Source: an uncultured Spartobacteria bacterium (GTDB lineage: Bacteria > Verrucomicrobiota > Verrucomicrobiia > Chthoniobacterales > Chthoniobacteraceae). From it: a stretch of DNA of 40,980 nucleotides. The DNA lies in NCBI GenBank assembly GCA_903929475.1, contig CAIYUV010000002.1, positions 1 to 40,980 of the forward strand, given 5' to 3'. A program made the translations under genes and the position numbers. The notes under the pieces were generated by a model that saw only the letters and a program-made list of their open reading frames with translations, made no database searches and was not told the DNA's origin. Shown in pieces: positions 30,416 to 35,278 of this stretch. The stretch's first letter is position 1. Every line of letters starts with the position of its first letter.

Positions 30416-30688
30416 ATGGCACAGGCAATCATGGACCCCGAGGAAGTGAGACGCTTTGCGAAGGAGATGAAGCGTTTCAACGACGATGTGCAGGCAAAGG
30501 CGGCATCGCTTCAGGCGCGGTTCGCGGCGCTCGGCAGTTCGTGGCAGGATCAGGAGGCGGAAAAATTTGCAGAGGAATTCATCACGACGATGAAGGTGCT
30601 AAAAAAATTCGTGGAGATCGCGGACAAGCACACGCCCTATCTCCTGCGCAAGGCACAGCGCATCGAGGAGTATCTGGATCAACGCTAA
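30416..30688 (+). CDS. WXG100-family protein
   Basis: The product has 90 residues, the family size, predicted as two helices joined by a turn holding Trp43-Gln-Asp45 (SSWQDQEAEKF), the W-x-[G/D] signature. There is no signal peptide. Such proteins are the small helical-hairpin substrates or partners of type VII (ESX/Ess) secretion and act with an EccC/EssC ATPase. That kind of ATPase is encoded three genes downstream in the same run. A TATAAC at 30399-30404 could be a -10 element, but no -35 stands out. ATG 30431 (MDPEEV) is an alternative start. The end, RIEEYLDQR, does not clearly contain the Y-x-x-x-D/E mycobacterial export tag, although an E-E-Y-L-D is present. Confidence 0.85.
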   Translation: MAQAIMDPEEVRRFAKEMKRFNDDVQAKAASLQARFAALGSSWQDQEAEKFAEEFITTMKVLKKFVEIADKHTPYLLRKAQRIEEYLDQR

Positions 30689-30691
30689 AAA

Positions 30692-31213
30692 ATGGCGACC
30701 CATGCAAAAGTCACATCACTCGACGCGCTGGAAACCTTCCGGGCGGCGCTGATTGTATTTATGACCAAGGCCCGGCGCTCGCTCGACGAAGTGAGCGATG
30801 AAATCCGCCGCACGAGACAGTGGATCGAAAACGACCGCCGGCTGCACTGGGAGGGTGAAATACGAAGGAGAAGGCGTGCGCTTGAGCAGGCCGAGCAGGA
30901 GTTGTTCAGCGCGCGGCTGTCGAAGTTTCTCGAAGCGAGCACGCGCCAGCTTGCCGTACGCAAGGCGCGAGAGGCGCTCTCGGAAGCCGAGGCGAAACTG
31001 CGCGCCATCAAACTCTGGAACCAAAAATACGACGCTGCCGCCGACCCGATGGCGAAGGGACTGGAAGGACTGCGACATTTCATCGAGCGACAGATGCCAG
31101 GAGCTGTCTCATTTCTCGTGCAGGCGCAAAAGATTCTCGAAGCATACACCAGCCCTGCAGCGCCGGACGGCGGCGCCGAAACCGCTGGCAGCGTAAACAC
31201 ACCACAATCATGA
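30692..31213 (+). CDS. Coiled-coil protein of the WXG/FtsK cluster, function unknown
   Basis: The 173-residue product is almost all charged helix (about 5-150), with a probable coiled coil at 55-110 rich in Arg, Glu and Ala, and a Pro/Gly/Ala tail. No signal peptide. It contains a literal Trp53-Glu-Gly55 in RRLHWEGEIRR, and a later W-N-x-K-Y-D segment followed by GLRHFIERQMPGAVSFL. I do not recognise a named family. The start lies 3 bp after the WXG100 stop and the end overlaps the next gene by 4 bp, so it belongs to the same operon. A role as substrate, chaperone or adaptor for the ATPase is inferred. Confidence 0.75.
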   Translation: MATHAKVTSLDALETFRAALIVFMTKARRSLDEVSDEIRRTRQWIENDRRLHWEGEIRRRRRALEQAEQELFSARLSKFLEASTRQLAVRKAREALSEAEAKLRAIKLWNQKYDAAADPMAKGLEGLRHFIERQMPGAVSFLVQAQKILEAYTSPAAPDGGAETAGSVNTPQS

Positions 31214-31422
31214 GCACGAAGGGCAGCGCATCAAATTTGCAGGAAGCCATGAAAAGTCTCTTCATCGCGTGGGCGCAGGTGAAGGAAGAGTGGCGCGATG
31301 CGAAGAGCCTCGAGTTTGAAGAAAAGTATATCGAGAGCCTGCCTCGTGATGTCTCGCAGGCAATCGAGGCAATGGAGGAAGTGGATACGCTTCTGAAAAA
31401 AGTAAGGAGGGACTGTGAATAG
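31210..31422 (+). CDS. Small WXG100-like protein
   Basis: The product has only 70 residues, mostly helical. Its core (Trp28-Arg-Asp30, WRDAKSLEFEEKYI) matches the WXG100 protein of this cluster position by position: both fit W-x-D-x5-F-x-E-x-[F/Y]-I. It therefore looks like a shortened paralogue with less of the first helix, possibly a partner for heterodimer formation. The ATG overlaps the preceding stop (ATGA, 31210-31213) and its stop overlaps the ATPase start by 8 bp, so translation is coupled on both sides. Confidence 0.75.
   Translation: MSTKGSASNLQEAMKSLFIAWAQVKEEWRDAKSLEFEEKYIESLPRDVSQAIEAMEEVDTLLKKVRRDCE
31404..31410 (+). promoter_or_regulatory. Strong ribosome binding site for the FtsK/EccC-like ATPase
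   Basis: AAGGAGG lies 4 nt before GTG 31415, inside the end of the preceding gene. Most genes in this window lack such a site, and this one fixes the GTG as the start of the ATPase. Confidence 0.8.
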
Positions 31423-34400
31423 CGGGCAAAACCTGTGTGTGAACCGGAGCCTCAAACTCCTCGCCCAACTCAAACAGACAGTCGTTGATTTTGGAAAAAA
31501 AGAGGAACAGATCGTCCGCGACCTTCGCGCGAAACGCCATGCGCTGACACGCAAACAGTATGATGCCACGGCGCGGATGAACGAGAAGTTCGCGGCGCAG
31601 GCCGGCGAAGTTGAGTCCGCATACCAGCACGAGGAACGGCGGATTCATTCCCTGCACGATGGACGAGCGGCGCGAATCAAACGGATGCAAACCACCGCGC
31701 TGCGCACACTGCCAAGACGCGCGCAGGATGCGAAAGGAAACTGGCTAGGCTCTTTGCAAATGCGGCAGATCAACGCGGATCGCAGCAGGCTGGCAGGACT
31801 GGAAACAGCCGATGTGACTGCCTCGAAATTTACCGCCAAGCTCGCGGAGAAAGCTGAAGCGCTCGCGAGTCTCGAATACTGCGCATCCGAATTTTTCAGC
31901 GGCTACGGTGCTTTTCGTAATTTACTCACTCACAATGTTGACTCTCCACTCGAAGGAAATTTAAGCGAATTGTATGACTTGTTGCGTCAACACGTGAGCA
32001 CGTCGGATGAACAACTCGTCGCGTTCCGAAAATTTCCACTCCCTCGAATTTTCGCCACTCTGCCGCTGGCGGTTATTCTGCCATTCATCATCGCGGGAGC
32101 GGTGATTGCGGCGTTTGCACTGGGTATTCATAGCGCAGCAGGCATTGGCATTGGCTTTGGCGGGGGCGTGCTGTTTCTGGTCATTTTTTGCGGACTGTAT
32201 CTCGCAGGCAGGCAGCAGGCCGCGCCAACTGCCGAGGCCATCGCCACCGCGCTCGCGAAAGCCCGCAATACGCACGCAGCTTGTGCTGCGGTAGCTGCCA
32301 ATGAACACAGGCACGCCCGCGATCATGTTGAAGAGGAATTCGCGCGCACCAAAGCGGCAATTGATGAGCAGTGGAGCGAGGCGGGAGGCATCGAGGCGAA
32401 ATTTGAAAAGGCGGCGCGCAACAAACTCGATGCGCAAGTGCCGCGAGCATTGGCGAAAAACGAGGCGCTCATGCGGCCCAAACTTCAGCGTATTGAGAGC
32501 GAACGTGCATCTCGGTTGGAGCAGATCAATCGCGAGGCGGAGACATGCAAATCGCAAGTGACAGCGACTCATACAGCCGAAACCGCTGCGCTCGACGCTG
32601 ATGAGAAATTACTCACCGAGACGCTGAGCCTTGATTGGAATCGCACCGTCACGCCGATACACGAGGCCATCCATGCGATGAACGACACGACTGCCGCGAG
32701 TTTTCCAGCTTGGGATTCCGCGTTCGCGGAAAAGTGGCTGCCTCCAAAAACATTCACACCTGCAGCGAAGTTCGCACACCTCGATCTCGATCTCGCCTCA
32801 GCGATGCCGAAGCAACTCGTGATGCCCGGCGGCGCACACGTGTCCGTCCCTCTCGCACTCTCGTTCCCGGATCAAGGCTCGCTGCTTTTTGAAACGAACG
32901 ACTCCGGCAACGAGACCGTCCTCAGCACGCTGAACAACATCATTCTCCGCCTGCTCTCGACGACACCGCCGGGCAAACTAAGTTTCACCATCATTGATCC
33001 GGTCGGACTCGGGCAGAGCTTCGCGGGGCTGATGCATCTTTCCGACTACGAGGAGAGCCTCATCAACCGCCGCATCTGGACCCAGCGCGATCAAATCGAG
33101 GAGCGGCTCGCGGAGTTGAGCGAGCACATCGAGAAGGTCATCCAGATGTATCTACGCAACGAATACGAGACCATCACGCAATACAACGAACAGGCCGGGA
33201 GCGTGGCGGAAAAGTATTACTTTCTCGTCGTATCGGATTTCCCATCGGGCTTCAGCGAAACCACTGCGAAGCGCCTGCAAAGCATCGCCACGAGCGGCGC
33301 GCGGTGCGGCGTGTTCACGCTCATTCACTGGGATCAGCGCCAGCCTCTGCCCGATGGTTTTGCAGTGGATGAACTCCGCAAGAGCAGCGTGTGCATCCGT
33401 GCTGAAAACGGCACCCTTGCGCTCTCTCGCGAGCAGGCTCAACTCGGAGCAAAGCTTGTTTTTGATCCCCCACCCCATCCGGATCTCGCCGCCGCTCTCG
33501 TTCACAAAATCGGGAAGAACAGCATTGATTCCAACCGCGTCGAGGTGCCCTTCGCGCAAATTGCGCCGCCGCCCGCTGAGATGTGGACGGGCGACACAAC
33601 GCAGGAACTTCGCGTCGCCATCGGACGCACCGGCGCGACGAAAATGCAGATGCTCGCCATCGGCAAAGGCACGCGGCAGCACGCGCTGTTCGCGGGCAAA
33701 ACGGGATCGGGAAAATCCACGCTATTTCACGTCATCATCACCAATCTCGCGCTCGCGTGCTCGCCGGATCAGGTCGAGTTTTACCTCATAGATTTCAAGA
33801 AGGGCGTGGAGTTCAAATGCTACGCAACGAAGCGCCTGCCGCACGCGCGCGTCGTCGCCATCGAGAGTGACCGCGAGTTTGCGCTGAGCGTGCTGCAACG
33901 CGTGGATGAGGAACTCAAGCGTCGCGGTGACATCTTTCGCAAAATGGGCGTGCAAGATATCGCCGGCTACAAAAGGGCTGGCGGCACCGAACCGATGCCG
34001 CGCACGCTGCTGCTCATTGATGAGTTTCAGGAGTTCTTTGTGGACAACGACACCATCGCGCAGACTGCATCGCTGTTGTTCGACCGCATTGTGCGCCAGG
34101 GCCGCGCGTTTGGCATCCATGTGCTGCTCGGCTCGCAGAGTCTTGGAGGTGCCTACTCGCTCGCTCGCGCAACACTCGGGCAGATGGTCATCCGCGTCGC
34201 CCTGCAATGCAACGAGGCCGACGCGTATCTCATCATGGACGACAGCAACTCCGCACCGCGTCTGCTCTCGCGCCCCGGCGAAGGCATCTACAACGATGCG
34301 GGCGGCGCGCTCGAAGGCAACAGCCCGTTTCAAGTCGTCTGGCTTCCAGACGACGAGCGCGACGAGTGGCTCGACAAAGTCAGCGCCCTCGCTGCTCAAC

Positions 34401-35278
34401 ATCACGACAAACATCCCAGCCCCATCGTCTTCGAAGGTAATGCGCCTGCCGACCTTCGCGAAAACGATCTCATTACCGCTGCACTCGCAACTGCGCCGAC
34501 AAAAGCGCCGCCCGCGTCGCGTTGCTGGCTCGGCGCGCCCAATTCGATCAAAGGCCCAACCGAGGTTGTCTTCCGCCGTCAAAGTGGAAATCACCTGCTC
34601 ATCGTCGGCCAACGCGAAGAGGCTGCGCTTTCCATCATCGGCGTCTCGATGCTCGCACTCGCAGCGCAGCATCCAGTCGGCACGGCAAAATTCGTTCTGC
34701 TCCACGGCGCAAATCCCGGCTCGCCGGATGAGGAGTTCATCGGACGAATCGCCGCCGCGATTCCGCATGAAATCAAAATCGCACGAGGAAACGATATCGC
34801 GGAGGTGATGAGCGAAATCGCGGCGACGCAGAAGGCGCGCGCTGCCGGGGAACAAAACGAATCTGCGCCGAGCGTGTTCTTTTTCATCCACGGTCTGCAC
34901 AAATTCAAAAAGCTCCGCCACGAGGACGACTTCTCGTTTTCCTCCGGCGACTGCGAAGCAAGTCCCGGCAGCCAGTTCATAGACATCATCACCGAGGGCA
35001 GCACACACGGCATCCACATCATCGCCACGGTGGACACCTTCAATAACGTGAACCGCGCCATGTCACGAAAGGCGCTGACGGAATTTGAAATGCGCGTCGT
35101 TTTCCAAATGGGCGCGAATGACTCCGCGAGCCTCATTGATTCGCCAAAGGCCAGCACGCTCGGCCTGCACCGTGCGCTCTACTACAATGAGCAGGAAGGA
35201 ACGCTGGAAACTTTCCGCCCCTACGCAATGCCGGATTCCGGGTGGATAAGTGCGGCCGCGGAAAAGCTCGCGCGTTAA
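31415..35278 (+). CDS. FtsK/SpoIIIE-type membrane ATPase, EccC/EssC-like
   Basis: The 1287-residue protein starts at GTG 31415. Residues 1-205 are charged helix or coiled coil. Two membrane helices follow (about 213-238 and 241-265), then another coiled-coil segment to about 430. Then come three FtsK/SpoIIIE-like modules. The first (about 480-680) lacks a Walker A. The middle one is complete: Walker A 761-769 (GKTGSGKST), LIDFKKGVEF, Walker B with Asp869-Glu870 (LLLIDEFQEFF), then RIVRQGRAFGIHVLLGSQSLGG. The third (about 1045-1210) has the fold-like phrase HLLIVGQREEA but no Lys/Ser loop. Two helices plus a tandem ATPase string match the motor of type VII secretion, which binds WXG100 substrates. 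FHA domains of EssC are absent. Chromosome-type FtsK is less likely, as the gamma domain and 4-TM start are missing. It converges on ispD with a 4-bp overlap. Confidence 0.9.
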   Translation: MNSGQNLCVNRSLKLLAQLKQTVVDFGKKEEQIVRDLRAKRHALTRKQYDATARMNEKFAAQAGEVESAYQHEERRIHSLHDGRAARIKRMQTTALRTLPRRAQDAKGNWLGSLQMRQINADRSRLAGLETADVTASKFTAKLAEKAEALASLEYCASEFFSGYGAFRNLLTHNVDSPLEGNLSELYDLLRQHVSTSDEQLVAFRKFPLPRIFATLPLAVILPFIIAGAVIAAFALGIHSAAGIGIGFGGGVLFLVIFCGLYLAGRQQAAPTAEAIATALAKARNTHAACAAVAANEHRHARDHVEEEFARTKAAIDEQWSEAGGIEAKFEKAARNKLDAQVPRALAKNEALMRPKLQRIESERASRLEQINREAETCKSQVTATHTAETAALDADEKLLTETLSLDWNRTVTPIHEAIHAMNDTTAASFPAWDSAFAEKWLPPKTFTPAAKFAHLDLDLASAMPKQLVMPGGAHVSVPLALSFPDQGSLLFETNDSGNETVLSTLNNIILRLLSTTPPGKLSFTIIDPVGLGQSFAGLMHLSDYEESLINRRIWTQRDQIEERLAELSEHIEKVIQMYLRNEYETITQYNEQAGSVAEKYYFLVVSDFPSGFSETTAKRLQSIATSGARCGVFTLIHWDQRQPLPDGFAVDELRKSSVCIRAENGTLALSREQAQLGAKLVFDPPPHPDLAAALVHKIGKNSIDSNRVEVPFAQIAPPPAEMWTGDTTQELRVAIGRTGATKMQMLAIGKGTRQHALFAGKTGSGKSTLFHVIITNLALACSPDQVEFYLIDFKKGVEFKCYATKRLPHARVVAIESDREFALSVLQRVDEELKRRGDIFRKMGVQDIAGYKRAGGTEPMPRTLLLIDEFQEFFVDNDTIAQTASLLFDRIVRQGRAFGIHVLLGSQSLGGAYSLARATLGQMVIRVALQCNEADAYLIMDDSNSAPRLLSRPGEGIYNDAGGALEGNSPFQVVWLPDDERDEWLDKVSALAAQHHDKHPSPIVFEGNAPADLRENDLITAALATAPTKAPPASRCWLGAPNSIKGPTEVVFRRQSGNHLLIVGQREEAALSIIGVSMLALAAQHPVGTAKFVLLHGANPGSPDEEFIGRIAAAIPHEIKIARGNDIAEVMSEIAATQKARAAGEQNESAPSVFFFIHGLHKFKKLRHEDDFSFSSGDCEASPGSQFIDIITEGSTHGIHIIATVDTFNNVNRAMSRKALTEFEMRVVFQMGANDSASLIDSPKASTLGLHRALYYNEQEGTLETFRPYAMPDSGWISAAAEKLAR

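Follow-up and report, generated by a model that had tools for sequence, protein, structure and literature searches.

Results

The window analyzed here is the whole of a 40,980-nucleotide stretch of contig CAIYUV010000002.1 (assembly GCA_903929475.1) from an uncultured Spartobacteria bacterium. Between positions 30416 and 35278 it carries four plus-strand open reading frames that lie next to one another with small gaps or overlaps of a few bases, all of them where a preliminary description of this DNA had placed them. The start of gene 3 overlaps gene 2 by 4 bases, and the start of gene 4 overlaps gene 3 by 8 bases. The four genes encode a WXG100-family protein (protein 1), a helical-hairpin protein (protein 2), a short W-x-D protein (protein 3), and an EccC/EssC-like ATPase (Table 1). 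We conclude that the unit is a cargo-less, stand-alone WXG100 (type VII-like) module of a diderm bacterium, in which a motor is accompanied by three helical partners and no recognizable toxin.

Protein 1 had been taken for a WXG100 protein, and this was borne out for the family but not for the motif. It scored 42.4 bits against the Pfam WXG100 model (PF06013; cut-off, 27.3 bits), so it does not fail the family model, and it is the sole PF06013 match in the whole 4.5-Mb genome. When a profile of its homologues was compared with solved structures, H. pylori HP0062 (3fx7/2gts) ranked first (E = 6e−12), with EsxB and EsxA behind it. HP0062 is a dimeric helical hairpin in which WRD replaces WXG, and its gene is clustered with a gene encoding an FtsK/SpoIIIE domain (PMC3397514). 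In protein 1 the motif is W-Q-D; W-x-D was present in 98/98 homologues, and W-x-G was found at the hairpin bend in none of the 98. Protein 1 is also the best-conserved gene product of the unit in 97/97 loci, with a median identity of 70% versus 50% for the ATPase and a higher value in every one of the 97 comparisons. Its C-terminal tail, PYLLRKAQRIEEYLDQR, is conserved.

The fourth gene product had been described as a two-transmembrane-helix FtsK/SpoIIIE ATPase forming a type VII pair with the WXG100 protein, and the profile scores place it nearer to EccC/EssC than to FtsK: 119.9 bits for EccCa (TIGR03924), 111.8 for EccCb, and 91.6 for EssC versus 31.1 for FtsK. The ATPase lies under the EccC/EssC equivalog cut-offs (119.9 versus 509 bits for TIGR03924). 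Its architecture comprises a coiled coil, two transmembrane helices as judged by hydropathy, a second coiled coil, and three FtsK-type domains. The three ATPase-like modules proposed earlier are therefore all represented by FtsK-type domains, but Walker motifs occur in the second (D2) only; Walker A and B of D2 are conserved in the alignment, and D1 and D3 are degenerate. A model of residues 438 to 1287 (predicted local distance difference test [pLDDT], 89; predicted template modeling score, 0.83) retrieved T. curvata EccC first in Foldseek (947 columns), EssC next, and then FtsK, and the best solved relatives of the ATPase are EccC proteins. In a tree of the active domain D2, the FtsK rows formed a separate clade with support of 100/100, and the ATPase family fell outside it. 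Pfam reported no FtsK gamma domain for the ATPase. The only other match in the genome is a weaker one, an ordinary FtsK on another contig (C122).

Protein 3, previously described as a second WXG100-like protein, failed the Pfam WXG100 model, but W-x-D was present in 98/98 of its homologues and its family profile matched the WXG100 proteins of the soluble relatives considered below (hhalign, 93.8%; E = 1.7e−7). The same profile matched the WXG100 protein of its own family weakly (hhalign, 5%), one protein 3 homologue was weakly matched by the WXG profile, and a profile comparison with the 70-residue gene of the soluble form gave no similarity. Judged by motif and profile, protein 3 is a probable short WXG100-like partner.

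Protein 2 matched no family in profile searches. AlphaFold predicted a single long hairpin (helices 2 to 75 and 79 to 153; pLDDT, 84) with a disordered tail, and Foldseek retrieved generic coiled coils only. A W-E-G had been noted in this protein. It lies inside the predicted continuous helix 2 to 75, and in an alignment of 13 homologues the G is replaced by A, S, N, or L; on this model and alignment we rejected it as a WXG motif. Each of 10 genomes of the window's genus contained exactly one gene 2 homologue and one full-length WXG homologue, so no orphan effector with these domains was found.

Table 1. Positions of the four genes and of the ATPase features in the window
Feature	Position	Strand	Basis or remark
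Gene 1: WXG100-family protein, 90 aa, W-Q-D at hairpin bend	30416..30688	+	PF06013 and HP0062 profile match
Gene 2: helical-hairpin protein (173 aa) of no known family; C-terminal tail disordered	30692..31213	+	AlphaFold, 13-homologue alignment
Gene 3: W-x-D protein of 70 aa, probably a divergent WXG100-like partner	31210..31422	+	Motif and profile match
Gene 4: EccC/EssC-like ATPase, 1287 aa, GTG start	31415..35278	+	TIGR03924, Foldseek, D2 tree
Two predicted transmembrane helices (residues 218-236, 246-264)	32066..32206	+	Hydropathy 2.7, 2.2; absent in Prosthecobacter clade
ATPase domain D1 (~residues 475-702), without Walker A or B	32837..33520	+	Alignment, model
ATPase domain D2 (~residues 732-977), sole one with Walker motifs	33608..34345	+	Pfam FtsK_SpoIIIE 109 bits, alignment
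Walker A GKTGSGKS of D2	33695..33718	+	Alignment
Walker B of D2 (hydrophobic run ending DE)	34007..34024	+	Alignment
ATPase domain D3 (~residues 1035-1272), Walker positions degenerate	34517..35230	+	Alignment, model

A scan of 84,980 species genomes yielded at least 184 relatives, and the best 80 were retrieved. Nearly all of these 80 belong to the Verrucomicrobiota; two are from Lentisphaerota, and single contigs are labeled Omnitrophota and Bacteroidota. Carriers made up 21 of 40 genomes of the window's family, including 10/10 in its genus and none in genus g5, and 22 of 388 genomes sampled across the phylum; cultured carriers include Chthoniobacter flavus Ellin428 and Verrucomicrobium sp. 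BvORR106. The three small genes stand upstream of the ATPase gene in fixed order and on the same strand in 97 of the 101 independent loci with enough upstream sequence. In all, the unit is conserved in ~100 diderm bacteria of soils and waters. No fifth gene recurs: the most frequent families in the flanks are of a generic kind and occur in at most 6 of ~107 loci. All four genes are under purifying selection (ratio of nonsynonymous to synonymous substitution rates, 0 to 0.16), and divergence is correlated among them (r = 0.70 to 0.85). Because of this fixed order, purifying selection, and correlated divergence, the four-gene unit is far beyond chance.

The flanks of the unit vary, and rows from the Verrucomicrobiaceae are nested within the window's order on the ATPase tree. 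Plasmid and phage searches returned distant relatives only, with no plasmid copy of the four-gene transmembrane form. One scaffold deposited as “Bacteriophage sp.” (L181, MT836827.1) combines an E1-like gene with a serine recombinase and an EssC-like ATPase of 1422 residues, and it resembles an integrative element more closely than a phage. Elsewhere, a WXG gene with a degraded C-terminal end stands alone between ispF-like and cysS-like neighbors (genome G033, contig C10; L042, 9939-10190); it has no adjacent ATPase gene and is likely a remnant of the unit.

Two transmembrane helices between coiled coils were assigned, by hydropathy only, in ~95 ATPase homologues. In a tree built from the last 850 ATPase residues, which leaves out the transmembrane region, the body of the family consists of hairpin-bearing ATPases, whereas in the nine loci of a Prosthecobacter clade (support, 100) the ATPase lacks any hydrophobic segment. 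All four genes were seen in 8 of these 9 loci. The ATPase of locus L105 probably also lacks the transmembrane pair and stands outside the clade. Most likely, then, the hairpin has disappeared on at least one occasion from an otherwise retained unit.

Near the position of the lost hairpin, nine hairpin-free loci (L106, L108-L110, L113-L115, L117, and L142) share the short motif SGMFKMFSKP, and L105 has GVFKAVPLAGRMF at about the same position; to judge from its sequence, this stretch could be an amphipathic membrane-binding segment. On a Deinococcus actinosclerus plasmid (CP029776; L179, 5240-8520), an ATPase relative without transmembrane helices is preceded by a coiled-coil protein of 142 residues, encoded on its own, that has a single transmembrane helix at its C terminus, as though anchoring to the membrane were the task of another subunit.

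Three loci of the same phylum (L044, 5137-18615; L167; L168) are soluble CoCoNuT III-A-type WXG100/EssC-like operons with TerY-P genes. This soluble form comprises VWA genes, a WXG100 protein (W-Q-D), a coiled-coil protein with a nuclease-like C terminus, small proteins, an ATPase without transmembrane helices, PP2C, a kinase, and a helicase; two genomes (G088 and G353) carry both it and the four-gene transmembrane form. The window unit shares with the CoCoNuT III-A EssC-like operons (PMC11090510) an N-terminal coiled coil, a single active ATPase domain (D2), two WXG100-like proteins, and a coiled-coil protein as gene 2. It differs from them in the predicted transmembrane helices of its ATPase, in having no nuclease-fused coiled-coil protein, and in its flanks, which are not of the TerY-P/VWA type. 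No VWA, PP2C, or kinase gene stands beside the unit, and no nuclease domain was found within it.

A similar arrangement occurs in Helicobacter (HP0062/HP0066 and plasmid pNHP190012_1), and HP0062 and HP0066 of H. pylori are listed as a WXG100 secretion system in PMC4978471. The plasmid order is WXG100, a 340-residue protein, SMI1/KNR4 (SUKH), a 77-residue protein, and the ATPase. Both the Helicobacter locus and the window unit have a WXG100 protein with W-x-D (WRD in HP0062), a short gene before the ATPase, and an ATPase with one Walker A site, and no solved structure matches protein 1 better than HP0062. In contrast to the window unit, the plasmid ATPase has 823 residues and no clear transmembrane hairpin, and its gene 2 product ends in a WHH/colicin-type nuclease and is followed by the SMI1/KNR4 gene. 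A nuclease with an adjacent immunity gene is the arrangement of toxin-delivery modules; in the window unit the order is the same, but both are absent. Gene 2 occupies the slot that in relatives (L044, L167, and the Helicobacter plasmid) is filled by a helical domain with a nuclease attached. An hhalign comparison of protein 2 with these nuclease-fused coiled-coil proteins (56%; E = 1e−4; 79 coiled-coil columns) did not establish homology, and we claim a positional equivalence only.

With the type VII secretion systems of the a and b kinds (EccC and EssC/YukB, respectively), the window unit shares the WXG100 fold and an ATPase with two transmembrane helices and three ATPase domains. It differs in having no WXG motif, no YxxxD/E signal, and no ATP-binding motifs in D1, and its ATPase has coiled coils where those of the compared systems have FHA domains. 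EssC carries ATP-binding motifs in D1 as well as in D2 (PMC11090510). The preliminary description noted that no EccB or EssB gene was nearby, and neither was found in the whole genome; EccD, EccE, EsaA, EssA, and mycosin were not searched for. No LXG protein scored above the cut-off in the genome. The type VII assignment made earlier thus stands for the WXG100 family and the EccC/EssC-type transmembrane ATPase, but not for W-x-G, YxxxD/E, the D1 motifs, or EccB/EssB.

A single YukD protein (PF08817, 51.9 bits) is encoded elsewhere in the genome (contig C40, 1525-7801; L174), in a ubiquitin-like conjugation locus, where it is the YukD-like ubiquitin and is accompanied by genes for an E1-like protein, JAB, E2/FHA, FHA-transmembrane, and trypsin-like proteins. 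YukD occurs in 1 of the 40 family genomes, versus 21 of 40 for the ATPase. It was rejected as a lacking component of the unit on the basis of its E1/E2/JAB context and its absence from 39 of the 40 family genomes.

Next to the unit, a sigma-54 response regulator gene lies ~97 bases upstream, and ispD converges on it from the opposite side with a 4-base overlap. A scan for sigma-70 promoters gave no signal above chance. Also in the window is a gene for an ATP:guanido phosphotransferase (PF00217; 24648-25811), perhaps a protein arginine kinase of the McsB type, here in a member of the Verrucomicrobiota.

Discussion

Type VII secretion is regarded as a system of the Bacillota and Actinomycetota. 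Stand-alone WXG100/EssC-like operons of outer-membrane bacteria have been mentioned in passing since 2012. Bitter et al. (2009) proposed the name “WXG100 systems,” in place of type VII systems, for loci with only a WXG100 gene and an FtsK-like gene (PMC2763215), and this name fits the window unit. A table footnote in Zhang et al. (2012) lists solo WXG proteins with a YueA-like three-domain ATPase as “mobile versions of T7SS” (PMC3482391, Table 1 footnote 6), the ATPase being active in its middle domain only and occurring in Verrucomicrobia and other diderm groups; the point about stand-alone operons is repeated in PMC11090510, citing Anantharaman et al. (2012). Like such systems, the window unit pairs a WXG100 protein with an FtsK/SpoIIIE-like ATPase of three domains, the middle one active to judge by its motifs. 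The footnote comes without a gene-by-gene description, whereas the form described here has four genes in fixed order, a transmembrane hairpin, W-x-D, and no cargo. The general kind is therefore already known, and what is new is the W-x-D in both small proteins, the usual transmembrane hairpin, and the lack of a nuclease or immunity gene. The literature covered, which largely left out subscription papers, yielded neither a functional study nor an account of the transmembrane, cargo-less four-gene form.

The reading that we prefer, to which we would give an even chance, is that an inner-membrane motor pulls on the W-x-D proteins and the long helical hairpin as one complex, moving it most likely across the membrane. 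The ATPase would form a hexamer on the inner membrane, held there by its transmembrane hairpin and coiled coils, and would recognize the complex of W-x-D proteins and helical hairpin. ATP hydrolysis in D2 would then drive the pulling. Hexamer, complex formation, and membrane location are inferred, the hexameric motor and the role of helical hairpins as ligands from what the family shows, and the direction and destination of transport are more uncertain. The likeliest result would be that the hairpin complex crosses the inner membrane; as no cargo is encoded, the substrate would be the small proteins themselves. Secretion by the unit is plausible on the sequence evidence.

Several observations weigh against this reading. 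The YxxxD/E signal was found in 0/110 homologues of protein 1 and 0/112 homologues of protein 3; the pattern occurs in 13 of 108 homologues of protein 2. EccB and YukC/EssB are missing from the genome, and we know of no diderm member with secretion data. The hairpin-free Prosthecobacter clade is the strongest evidence here against the view that the ATPase must itself form an inner-membrane channel. Finally, soluble relatives sit in operons that are predicted to act in defense or restriction (PMC11090510). The proposal in the preliminary description of a reduced inner-membrane translocon is retained as far as the four-gene unit and its EccC/EssC-like transmembrane ATPase are concerned, but it is weakened by the nine loci without the hairpin, by the missing YxxxD/E signal, and by the soluble relatives in predicted defense operons.

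Some of the same observations would be expected if the ATPase pulled the W-x-D/hairpin complex inside the cell, in stress or phage defense and with no secretion, an explanation that we consider less probable than transport but a serious possibility. The transmembrane hairpin would merely position the ATPase near the membrane, an optional tether, and the hairpin-free clade does retain the other genes. This explanation also accommodates the lack of YxxxD/E and of any recognizable cargo or immunity gene. The relatives without transmembrane helices, which stand with TerY-P kinase/phosphatase/VWA genes, nucleases, and helicases, are predicted restriction/defense systems, and transmembrane helices are absent in that set (PMC11090510). 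However, the two helices are kept in most members of the family, no defense gene is a recurrent neighbor of the unit (the families most often found in its flanks, in up to 6 of ~107 loci, are generic), and the toxin and immunity gene of the Helicobacter relative are a better fit to delivery.

It is highly improbable that the unit belongs to a complete type VII system whose remaining parts are scattered elsewhere in the genome. The one PF08817 protein would favor this, but it lies in a conjugation locus and does not follow the ATPase among the family genomes, and EccB, YukC/EssB, and LXG gave nothing above the cut-off (EsaA, EssA, EccD, and EccE were not searched for). A duplicated chromosomal FtsK with incidental small neighbors can be dismissed, as far as sequence allows, as exceedingly improbable: the ATPase does contain a Pfam FtsK_SpoIIIE domain, but the D2 tree and the profile scores speak against such an origin, Pfam reported no gamma domain, an FtsK of the genome's own is encoded elsewhere, and the gene order is fixed.

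The window variant is the simplest clean form of such an operon, with four genes, no cargo, and one domain with ATP-binding motifs. It allows a direct test of whether a WXG100-type protein and its motor suffice for moving protein across a membrane, and the natural hairpin-free clade makes the need for the transmembrane hairpin testable as well. More tentatively, and in our estimate somewhat unlikely, the unit may be a non-secretory ATP-driven machine of type VII ancestry that remodels W-x-D hairpin complexes at or near the inner membrane. If so, the toxin-carrying, CoCoNuT, and cargo-free forms would all have branched from a single W-x-D lineage, with secretion of WXG100 proteins as just one use of the WXG100/motor pair.

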